The notes beneath the pieces were generated by a model, which ran no database searches, was not told where the DNA came from, and was given only the letters and a program-made list of their open reading frames with translations. A DNA stretch of 49,639 nucleotides from positions 1-49,639 of the forward strand of contig JAFDEE010000036.1 of NCBI GenBank assembly GCA_019310525.1. Direction: 5' to 3'. Numbering within the stretch: the stretch's first letter is position 1; the number at the start of each line of letters is the position of its first letter. The position numbers and the translations under genes are program-made. The stretch comes from Deltaproteobacteria bacterium (GTDB taxonomy: Bacteria; Desulfobacterota; DSM-4660; Desulfatiglandales; HGW-15). Shown here one piece after another: positions 1-44,652 of this stretch.

Positions 1-107
1 AAATACTTCAATGTATGGGGCCTCTGCCGCTTGGGATACCAAGCGGGGCGGTTGAAACTTTCGCCTTCCTTGAACTTGACCAAAATTGAGCATTTTTCAA
101 AGGTCTT
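1..107 (+). repeat. Mosaic palindromic repeat, copy A (left-truncated by window)
   Basis: Shares the core AAATACTTCAATGTAT and the TTTCGCCTTCCTTGA block with the copies near 3.1, 11.2, 20.1, 38.2 and 44.2 kb. The segment between them is replaced by a GC-rich hairpin (CGCTTGGGATACCAAGCG). The right end TTTTTCAAAGGTCTT is the GAGACCTTTG-type terminus. It lies directly downstream of the YcaO gene stop. Confidence 0.8.
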
Positions 108-2806: not shown

Positions 2807-3091
2807 ACGACAAAAAATCCAGAGTCTCTCCCTGTAGTCTCCCTTGATGGAAATAAAAACCTATAAGGGGATATTTCCCGTAAATTCCGGCGTAAAGCCA
2901 CCCCCGGCCCTTCTGGCAAAACCGTACTTGTAGCTTGGGGGGCCTTTTGCAAAATCAACTTAGCAGATAGCGGCGGACCTTTCAAAGCAAATATGGACGC
3001 TCCATCTTTTCACCTTTGAGGATAAAAAGGCGGATATTCCCCGGGCAAAGGGGAGGGGCGGCTATATGGAAAAAACAGGGTTTATGAGTTC
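2807..3091. other. Intergenic region between divergent larE and hup, left part
   Basis: No gene recognised. It must hold the larE promoter. On the minus strand two TTTACG hexamers lie 8 nt apart (about 2880-2898), a possible operator. On the plus strand the same stretch reads CGTAAAGCCAC, which resembles part of a cyclic-di-GMP riboswitch, but the rest of that fold is not convincing. Confidence 0.3.
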
Positions 3092-3233
3092 GTGCCCATC
3101 CATAAATGGCCAATTTCCGCAATCTCTGCGTCAGGCTCAAATTTTAATCCTCGAAATACTTCAATGTATTCCTGCGGTTAAAATTTTCGCCTTCCTTGAC
3201 CTTGAACAAATTTTCTCATTTATGGATGGACAC
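3092..3233 (+). repeat. Mosaic palindromic repeat, copy B (ATCCATAAAT-type ends)
   Basis: The best-defined copy. Terminal inverted repeats of 17 bp (3092-3108 and 3217-3233) match at 16 positions. The perfect direct repeat GAGTTC flanks it at 3086-3091 and 3234-3239, as a target-site duplication would. The core folds on itself: 3139-3150 pairs with 3176-3186, and AATAC/GTATT lie inside. The core recurs in copies A, C, D, E and F. Confidence 0.85.
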
Positions 3234-3412
3234 GAGTTCATTCCAGGAGGCTCCCTCCTTTATAGCGGGCTCGGGCGATACCGAACGGCCGAAAAGGGCG
3301 TGGAAAAAGGACTTTCGGCTGATTTTTGGGTTGAAATTTCATTTTGGATCGATTAATGTTCCCTGGAAATTCCGTTTTATCCTTGAACCACTTTTCAAAA
3401 GGAGGAGGAGCT

Positions 3413-11157: not shown

Positions 11158-11352
11158 GAGACCTTTGAAAAACGCCCCCTTTTGCCCAATCTCTGCGCCT
11201 GCCTGTGCCGGGCCTATCTGCCGTTCCGACGGGACAGGCAGGCACGGCAGACAGGTCAGACTCAAATTTTAATCCTCGAAATACTCCAATGTATTCCTGC
11301 GGTTAAAATTTTCGCCTTCCTTGACCCTTGGACAAAATTGAACATTTTTTAG
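11158..11352 (+). repeat. Mosaic palindromic repeat, copy C (GAGACCTTTG-type ends)
   Basis: The left end GAGACCTTTGAAAAACG is intact; the right end is eroded to TTTTTTAGG. The core (CTCAAATTTTAATCCTCG, then GGTTAAAATTTTCGCC) is nearly identical to copy B. Between left end and core sits a long GC-rich palindrome (about 11197-11255) built from CCTGCCTGTGCCG and CGGGACAGGCAGGCACGG. It abuts the radA start. Confidence 0.85.
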
Positions 11353-20073: not shown

Positions 20074-20272
20074 GGGCCCATCCATAAATAGGCAATTTTG
20101 TTCAAGGTCAAGGAAGGCGAAGATTTTAACCGCAGGAATACATTGAAGTATTTCGAGGATTAAAATCTGAACCTGACCTGTCTATCGTGCCTGCCTGCCC
20201 CTTGGAATGGCAGATAGGTCCGGCACGGGCAGGCGCAGAGATTGGGGAAAAGGGCCATTTATGGATGGGCAC
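20074..20272 (-). repeat. Mosaic palindromic repeat, copy D (ATCCATAAAT-type ends)
   Basis: Inverted ends of 16 bp (20074-20089 and 20257-20272, one mismatch) are flanked by the direct repeat TATTTA (20068-20073 and 20273-20278). The core is in reverse orientation relative to copies A-C: TTGTTCAAGGTCAAGGAAGG, then AATACATTGAAGTATT. A GC-rich hairpin segment around 20180-20235 resembles that of copy C. Confidence 0.85.
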
Positions 20273-30541: not shown

Positions 30542-31342
30542 ATGTCCTGTGTATTGGGTATTGATATTGGTTCCGCCCATTCAAAATGCGTCCTCCTTTC
30601 CGAGGGAAAGGTGATCGAGCGCATCGACCGCCCCTCTGGAGGAGATTTTGCCGTCACGGCCGATGAGCTCCGCCGGGACCTTCTCGCCCGAACCGGGATT
30701 TCTCCAGAGGCGATTGAAAGGACTATAGCCACCGGGTACGGGGCCAAGAGCGTTGGTTTTGCATCCGATACGAGGTCGGACATCACCTGCCACAGCATGG
30801 GCGTTCACCTCCTCCTGCCGTCAGCAAGGACGGTTATCGACGTGGGAGACCTCTACAGTAAGGTCTTCAAGGTAGATGGAAGAGGGCATGCAAACAACTT
30901 TCTGTTGAGCGGAAAATGTGCAGGTGGAAGCGGAAGGGTGCTTCAAGTCATTGCAAAGGTACTCCACGTCCCGGTGGAGGATATCGGAGAGATGTCCCTG
31001 AGGTCAAAAAATCGGGTGGATTTCAACACCGGATGCGTAGTGTTCGCCGAATCCGAGGCGGTCTCCAGGATCGCCGAAGGGGTCCCCAAGGAGGACCTGT
31101 TGGCTGGAATCCACCGGGCCCTCGCCGCCCAGATTTACAACCTTGCTGAAAGGCTGGGGATTGAAACGGAACTGGCCCTCGTGGGCGGCGGAGCTCGGGA
31201 TGTGGGTCTGGTAAAGGCCCTGGAAGAGATCTCCGGCGGAAAAGTTTTAGTTCCTGAGGAACCCCATATGACGGCGGCCCTTGGTGCAGCCATCATCGCG
31301 GAGACCGAGACCATGGAGCCCACGGAACCGATCCCCCATTAG
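30542..31342 (+). CDS. BadF/BcrD-type ATPase subunit with divergent phosphate motif
   Basis: Member of the BcrA/BadF/HgdC ATPases, which couple ATP hydrolysis to low-potential electron transfer into benzoyl-CoA reductases or 2-hydroxyacyl-CoA dehydratases. It opens VLGIDIGSAHSK (phosphate-1 loop). The bridging [4Fe-4S] cysteines are Cys126 (GKCAGGSG) and Cys165 (TGCVVFAESE). The second phosphate motif, DIGGQDSK in the paralog at 34169, reads DVGDLYSK here; from memory BcrD also departs from the canonical motif at this place. This suggests the non-canonical half of an ATPase heterodimer. 266 aa; GGGGAG precedes the ATG. It has its own hairpin at the stop codon, and the other three subunit genes start 217 nt later with a separate promoter. 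Confidence 0.85.
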   Translation: MSCVLGIDIGSAHSKCVLLSEGKVIERIDRPSGGDFAVTADELRRDLLARTGISPEAIERTIATGYGAKSVGFASDTRSDITCHSMGVHLLLPSARTVIDVGDLYSKVFKVDGRGHANNFLLSGKCAGGSGRVLQVIAKVLHVPVEDIGEMSLRSKNRVDFNTGCVVFAESEAVSRIAEGVPKEDLLAGIHRALAAQIYNLAERLGIETELALVGGGARDVGLVKALEEISGGKVLVPEEPHMTAALGAAIIAETETMEPTEPIPH

Positions 31343-31373
31343 TGTCCATCCATAAATAAAATCCGGACACTAA
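31339..31373 (+). terminator. Hairpin overlapping the stop codon; minimal repeat-end element
   Basis: A perfect 9-bp stem TTAGTGTCC/GGACACTAA encloses ATCCATAAATAAAATCC. The left arm plus loop is exactly the ATCCATAAAT-type terminus of the mosaic repeats, with the core missing. The TAG stop lies in the left arm. CAGTCTTTTCC follows, so partial termination is plausible. Confidence 0.6.
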
Positions 31374-38164: not shown

Positions 38165-38287
38165 GAGACCTTTGAAAAACGTTCAATTTTGTTCAAGGTC
38201 AAGCCTCCGGCCCGTAAGGCCTACGCCCCGGAGGGGAAGGCGAAAATTTTAACCACAGGAATACATTGAAGTATTTCCAAAGGTCTC
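38165..38287 (-). repeat. Mosaic palindromic repeat, copy E (GAGACCTTTG-type ends)
   Basis: A compact 123-bp copy bounded by GAGACCTTTG and CAAAGGTCTC and flanked directly by GTTAT at 38160-38164 and 38288-38292. It contains the reverse core (AATTTTGTTCAAGGTCAAG, then GAAGGCGAAAATTTTAACC, then AATACATTGAAGTATT) and a CCTCCGG...CCGGAGG-like hairpin shared with copy F. The rest of 38288-38404 shows nothing recognisable. Confidence 0.85.
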
Positions 38288-40156: not shown

Positions 40157-40471
40157 GGGGAATGATCCGGTTTTTTTCGGTTTCCTGTGCCGCCCCCGCT
40201 GGTGTAATGTCCACCGATAAATATGTATTCAGGCAGTGGGGAGCGTCGCTAAGCGCGGACAAACGAGCCATTTATGGATAGAAACCAGTGTAATGAGTCC
40301 TCCTGGAGGGTGTCAACGCTTTTCTCAAGGAGAAGGAAACTATACTAGATATGGTTTACCTGAAATTCAAATATACAGCATATGGTGTTTAATCTTTACA
40401 AAAGTCCTCTCATCTGGTATTCATGGAGAGCCTGAAGGAACAAGTTTTTCCGTAGGCAGGGAGGAAAGTTC
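40157..40471. other. Divergent intergenic region between the LysM gene and smc
   Basis: 315 nt. It holds a degraded ATCCATAAAT-type repeat (40210-40287, TCCACCGATAAAT...ATTTATGGATAG) flanked by the 8-bp direct repeat GTGTAATG (40202-40209 and 40288-40295). TATACT at 40341 may be a -10 element for smc, but no good -35 is seen. Confidence 0.55.
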
Positions 40472-44149: not shown

Positions 44150-44375
44150 GTTTCCATCCATAAATAGGCAATTTTGTTCAAGGTCAAGCCTCCGGCCCGT
44201 AAGGCCTACGCCCCGCTTGGTATGCCAAGCGGGACAGGCATACATACATTGAAGTATTTCGAGGATTAAAATCTGAGCCTGACGCAGCCTGTCCGCCGCT
44301 GTTTGGCGGGCTTGTCACGCCGTAGCCTTAGCGAAGGCGGAAGATTGGGGAAAAGGGCCGTTTATGGATGGACAC
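44150..44375 (-). repeat. Mosaic palindromic repeat, copy F (ATCCATAAAT-type ends)
   Basis: Inverted ends GTTTCCATCCATAAAT and GTTTATGGATGGACAC are flanked by TAATCA (44144-44149) and TGATCA (44376-44381), a 6-bp direct repeat with one mismatch. It holds the reverse core and two GC-rich hairpins, one (CCGCTTGGTATGCCAAGCGG) like that in copy A. Between here and copy G (44376-44546) no gene is recognised. Confidence 0.82.
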
Positions 44376-44546: not shown

Positions 44547-44652
44547 GAGCCTGATGCAGCTTGCCCGCCAGCAGTTTGGCGGGCTTGTCATGCCGTACGT
44601 AGTCGTGAGGAGGGCGGAAGATCAGGCAAAAGGGGGCTTTTTCAAAGGTCTC
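44547..44652 (-). repeat. Partial mosaic repeat, copy G
   Basis: Matches the right half of copy F (GAGCCTGATGCAGC, then GTTTGGCGGGCTTGTC, then GGCGGAAGAT) but ends in TTTTTCAAAGGTCTC, the other terminus type. It directly precedes the ribosome site of the next gene. Confidence 0.75.

Follow-up and report, generated by a model that had tools for sequence, protein, structure and literature searches.

REP-type elements are palindromes of 20–40 bp, often paired, that are associated with RAYT Y1 transposases. IS-derived MITEs, such as RUP of pneumococcus (IS630-Spn1) and MITEAba12, are short and intergenic, with IS-like inverted ends and target duplications (PMC2229807, PMC6382973), and Correia elements occur in size variants of 107 and 155 bp through internal inserts (PMC2229807).

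The stretch of DNA analysed here (the window, 49,639 bp) is contig C36 of a 3.78-Mb Desulfobacterales draft genome in 158 contigs (G000, the home genome). It holds six copies of a mini-transposon family, about 142 bp long and apparently non-coding. Like RUP and MITEAba12, the family is short, apparently without coding capacity and intergenic, with IS-like inverted ends and target duplications. Unlike them, it carries one interior under five end classes (T1–T5) that involve at least two clearly different IS families; its duplications differ in length, and the sharing spans genera and orders. With ERIC and Correia (NEMIS) elements it has in common palindromes of 100–200 bp that fold end to end and size variants made by inserts, but its sequence is unrelated to theirs, its several hairpin cassettes occupy four fixed sites, and its exchangeable ends are tied to named transposase families. 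BIMEs and REPINs are likewise mosaic, palindromic and present in many copies; the 6-, 5- and 4-bp duplications and DDE-type IS ends seen here differ from theirs and argue against REP/REPIN membership. The terminal 16–18 bp and the duplication lengths of T1 and T2 are those of ISNCY and IS5 ISs, and T3 shares a CTAG target with IS1182, but the present elements lack a transposase gene and their interior was unmatched in the IS ends examined.

Short length, matching inverted ends, lack of long ORFs, fixed duplications, ISs with the same ends and a filled/empty pair mark these elements as MITEs, a kind that is already known. In the open literature searched, whose coverage is incomplete and leaves most subscription papers outside, we found no prior description of ends and interior separating over at least two clear, and probably three, transposase families, and no earlier mention of the family sequences. 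We consider it likely that the copies form a mosaic MITE superfamily, with IS-matched tips around a common interior, whose classes exchange interiors or ends. What seems to be a single element is probably movable by several different enzymes.

Copies in the window

The six core-sharing copies of the original prediction were all found where it had placed them, accompanied, as it had said, by partial copies and remnants. A profile of the interior agrees, with matches at 1–84, 3122–3210, 11255–11336, 20097–20177, 38188–38278 and 44243–44287 (E values from 1e-8 to 1e-29).

1..107, + strand: copy A, T2 element cut off at the contig start, leaving its right part with cassette M5; interior profile match
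3086..3091, unstranded: left target duplication of copy B, GAGTTC, 6 bp; right counterpart at 3234–3239
3092..3233, + strand: copy B, intact T1 element of 142 bp, GTGCCCATCCATAAAT...ATTTATGGATGGACAC; interior profile E 1.4e-29
11158..11352, + strand: copy C, T2 element whose right tip has decayed, carrying cassette M1; interior profile match
11197..11254, + strand: cassette M1 (GCCTGCCTGTGCC...GGCAGACAG) at fixed site CTCTGC^GTCAGG
20074..20272, − strand: copy D, T1 element of 199 bp with the 57-bp cassette M1, flanked by TATTTA/TATTTA; interior profile match
31342..31357, + strand: T1 left tip alone, a very short remnant
38165..38287, − strand: copy E, T2 element with ends GAGACCTTTG, flanked by the 5-bp duplication GTTAT; internally deleted and carrying cassette M4
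38204..38238, − strand: cassette M4 (CCTCCGGGGCGTAGGCCTTACGGGCCGGAGG), a palindrome, at fixed site GCCTTC^CTTGAC
40207..40285, unstranded: degraded T1-like remnant, with tip mismatches of 3 and 2
44150..44375, − strand: copy F, T1 element with cassettes M2, M4 and M5, flanked by TAATCA/TGATCA (one mismatch); interior profile match
44637..44652, − strand: T2 right end alone, a remnant

The flanking repeats first reported for B, D and E are exact, and those of F differ at one position. The copies had been described as all intergenic and none protein-coding. With respect to long ORFs that are probable genes, this holds for every copy except C, whose first 32 bases overlap the 5' end of a TTG-start ORF.

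Distribution and copy number

We searched the home genome and its relatives with the core and the ends, as had been proposed. The core AATACTTCAATGTATTCCTGYGGTTAAAATYTTCGCCTTCC is present in 23 of 85 genomes and 14 of 47 genera of the order, and the reversed control gave zero matches. Outside the order, three genomes of the same phylum hold 31, 1 and 15 copies. The named public genomes that match the core exactly are without exception MAGs; their labels read Desulfobacterales, Desulfobacteraceae, Deltaproteobacteria or Proteobacteria.

Copy numbers in the home genome, namely 88 core matches (≤3 mismatches), 278 T1 and 320 T2 ends (≤2 mismatches; control matches essentially nil) and about 300 end pairs, are lower bounds, since many contigs start near a T1 or T2 end and the family thus probably breaks the assembly. 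Contigs C3, C7, C10, C14, C18, C19, C61, C62 and C140 each have such an end within about 100 bp of their start.

End classes and target duplications

The original prediction had listed all copies together and spoken of probable 6-bp duplications. This stands for B, D and F, which have T1 ends (GTGYCCATCCATAAAT); A, C and E have other ends, of class T2 (GAGACCTTTGAAAAAC), whose duplications are 5 bp long. The GTTAT repeat of E therefore follows the T2 rule and is not a shortened 6-bp duplication. In related genomes, further ends occur on the same interior: T3 (GAGGCTGTCCGAGAATGG), T4 (GAGCCAGTTTCAAAACG) and T5 (GTGCCTGAACGAAAAC).

We compared the left and right flanks of intact elements from the home and related genomes, with shuffled pairing (500 shuffles) as control. 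Exact 6-bp duplications, at targets of the TANNTA type, flank 34 of 59 T1 elements (shuffled mean 0.94, maximum 5), and exact 5-bp duplications flank 19 of 34 T2 elements (0.02, maximum 1). For T3, 11 of 31 elements have exact 4-bp duplications, mostly CTAG (3.8, maximum 9), and 3/5 T5 elements have exact 6-bp ones. Set against shuffled flanks, the counts for T1 and T2 leave no statistical doubt about the length, and duplication length is thus a property of the end class. Direct repeats missing from other copies had been named as grounds for rejecting a transposable family; this did not occur, most intact copies having duplications. There is also a natural filled/empty pair: at locus L258 a T2 element interrupts a T1 element and is flanked left and right by TCTCT, and the uninterrupted T1 sequence CAATCTCTGCG has a single TCTCT.

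Partner transposases

We screened transposase loci across the order for flanking inverted repeats. ISs with T1 ends, of about 1.66–1.70 kb, occur in relatives; they have GTGTCCATCCA-type ends, belong to the ISNCY family and show 6-bp duplications (TAATTA at L185 and L186, TAAATA at L205). The L186 transposase matches the NCBIfam ISNCY model NF033593 at 449.6 bits (cut-off 325), and its genome (G044) also holds a T1 MITE (L238). T2-ended ISs in relatives are IS5-family elements of 1.45–1.93 kb with ends GAGACCTTTG and duplications ACTGT (L155/L162) and TGAAG (L163); a transposase of this type matches NF033581 at 175 bits. Terminal identity between MITE and IS is 18/18 for ISNCY and T1 and 16–17/18 for IS5 and T2.

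The partner of T3 is probably an IS1182-family IS. The tips of two such ISs, L150 and L169, resemble that of T3, with a tip match of 12–13/18, and T3 elements have a CTAG-like 4-bp duplication. L150 has CTAG borders; in its genome (G045) the IS (L150:95–1730) has inserted next to a T3 end, at the CTAG on its border. For T4 and T5, no partner IS was found among the screened transposase loci of the order.

The search for an IS with the same ends thus succeeded in relatives (ISNCY for T1, IS5 for T2) and failed in the home assembly. There we found no match to PF05598 or to IS5_4, and the ISNCY search yielded only an 87-bp ISNCY-like fragment below the cut-off. The source of transposase in the home genome may have been lost or may be unassembled. 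Because this assembly has no ISNCY or IS5_4 transposase above the cut-off, trans-mobilisation at home is deduced from the relatives. Two candidates were rejected. A long T1 pair at C10:887–2493, considered as an autonomous element, consists of two MITEs around a non-transposase gene, and the PF01609 transposases of the home genome (L127–L129) were dismissed as partners, L128 having inverted ends of its own.

L128 (L128:1–1640, contig C62) is an IS4-family IS bounded by CAATGTCATTAACTTAA; its insertion point lies some 10 bp from a T1 element's end, and its flanks are GATGGACACT/GATGGGCACT (10 bp, one mismatch). On contig C118, a truncated IS4-family transposase (L127:1237–2696) adjoins an IS630-family transposase fragment.

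The window repeats had been attributed to a non-autonomous family moved by a transposase encoded elsewhere. A MITE they are, and a single transposase does not suffice: the data support a need for two transposase families in the window, and the copies across relatives probably need three or more.

Ends and interior sort differently

At least five end classes carry one interior of about 100 bp, in register, which bears out the mosaic nature first ascribed to the repeats. T2 and T4 elements without cassettes measure 143 bp, those of T1, T3 and T5 142 bp, so ends of different classes are in register.

We aligned 86 simple copies and computed identity in 8-column windows. In tip columns, identity was ∼0.89–0.91 for copies with the same tip from different genera, compared to ∼0.54–0.58 for copies from the same genus with different tips. 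Variable interior columns showed the opposite trend: copies of one genus with different tips were about as similar as those with the same tip, and more similar than copies of different genera with the same tip. Within-stratum permutations put the tip effect at 0.36 for the left tip and at 0.02 for the interior; the genus effect was 0.08–0.11 in those interior columns that the search pattern does not cover. The test takes copies as independent, which they are not, and hence these effect sizes weigh more than counts. Recruiting copies via the core pattern biases the core, but not the flanking interior, toward similarity. The ends, then, sort by transposase across genera, and the interior sorts by host genus regardless of ends. 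Within the home genome, two interior types lie under the same T1 tips; one resembles T2 close to the ends (CCCTTTTCCCC...GAACAAAATTG), the other does not.

Similarity between MITE and IS is limited to the terminal 16–18 bp, with the first 28–45 bases of each IS end compared. An interior resembling the IS, as internal deletion of a partner would leave, was not seen in these ends.

Cassettes and hairpin

Palindromic inserts occupy four fixed sites in the longer copies: CAATCT^CTGCGT, CTCTGC^GTCAGG, CAGGCT^CAAATT and GCCTTC^CTTGAC. An identical cassette at an identical site is shared by T1 and T2 elements in the home genome, by T1 and T3 elements in G041, and by T3 and T5 elements in G022; in G042 and G051, one site is used by different hairpins. 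In the sampled stretches of the home genome, most cassette matches lie within tip-bounded elements, and the rest are mostly in damaged or contig-edge copies.

The long stem originally proposed for the core extends to the whole element, which pairs end to end. Standard pairs make up 95.7% of the interior pair cells in a set of 41 sequences and fall to ∼45% when the partner is shifted by one column, and two-sided changed cells number 54, compared to 14.6 in shuffles. These data show that the palindrome is maintained by compensatory changes. Such upkeep is predicted both by selection on the hairpin and by template-switch correction.

Deep common ancestry might explain much of this: the tips would have diverged slowly, following their transposases and with no exchange, while selection (for transposition or host use, for example) kept the interiors alike. 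The covarying stems agree with it, as does the above-chance similarity of in-register tips by consensus counts (∼12/19 for T1/T3, 13/17 for T2/T4). Pure selection, however, does not predict interiors that group by host genus whatever the tip, nor genome-specific cassettes at one site in several tip classes (G000, G041, G022), and we regard this history as unlikely.

Nested, hybrid and short forms

Three loci (L045, L270 and L110) hold hybrids whose two ends belong to different classes; they are candidate products of exchange. Hybrid-ended copies lack duplications, as recombinants between loci would, and could also be short-read assembly chimeras. At L269:130–610 (contig C59 of the home genome), a T1 element has a T2 left end buried inside it, with the T2 right end absent, and is a possible intermediate of end exchange. 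L036 and L201, also considered as T1/T2 hybrids, were discarded for weak tip calls (4 mismatches).

Inserts of about 240–400 bp, with ends like AACCCAAATTATGC...GCATAATTTGGG, lie in T1/T2 elements of the home genome at L260, L063 and L093. Some inserts of this type contain CTGCCTGCGGCAGGCAGG palindromes and apparently represent another nested repeat family.

The shortest forms are minimal two-tip elements. One of 38 bp (L088:296–333, contig C7 of the home genome) consists of two T1 tips only and has a perfect 6-bp duplication, TACCTA; another (L089) is 73 bp. Such elements, and the entry of cassettes at fixed points, could suggest that the interior is itself a palindromic module inserted, like a cassette, in the loop of older two-tip elements. 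Against this, the short forms retain subterminal interior at the junction, as internal deletions would, element length is constant in every class, and no interior was seen between foreign flanks with a duplication of its own. An inserted interior is in our judgement very improbable.

DISCUSSION

Sequence and compensatory pairing are conserved from genus to genus and even outside the order, which is also what one would expect of a putative RNA or regulatory element that benefits the host and is spread by several transposases. We give this little credence: Rfam covariance models returned no match, one genome holds some 300 end pairs along with many broken and truncated copies, and compensatory changes are predicted by hairpin template switching as well. 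Two or more independent MITE families, each deleted from its own IS and alike only in appearance, would account for every class matching its own IS in tips and duplication length, but such an origin is hardly tenable, as separate IS deletions cannot yield an identical interior in register, the length, compensatory stem changes and cassettes are also common to the classes, and past the tips no resemblance between IS ends and MITE is visible.

Exchange among classes is the reading we favour. Each copy would be a quasi-palindrome of about 142 bp whose terminal 16–19 bp are recognised by one IS transposase and whose interior of about 100 bp is common to all. We infer that ISNCY and IS5 transposases act in trans on the tips, and that copies of different classes may recombine through the common interior. 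Exchange could proceed by gene conversion confined to the interior, or, plausibly, by one element inserting into the interior of another and then recombining, which would swap an end. Gene conversion and end replacement both fit as putative routes of exchange. Recombination would keep interiors alike within a genome and give an interior new ends, and hairpin template switching would restore the match between the two arms after an end change.

We also suggest, tentatively, that the interior hairpin is the lasting unit: its terminal ∼20 bp would be swapped by recombination and hairpin template switching to change transposase, and the element could thereby persist across the order when one transposase is lost.

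The usual description of a MITE makes it dependent on a single IS; here an interior is carried by several transposase families. An interior shared among end classes complicates the classification of MITEs by interior similarity. The natural combinations of end and interior provide material for asking what a transposase needs past the terminal 18 bp, and the separate evolutionary tracks of ends and interior make it testable how MITEs outlive their transposase.
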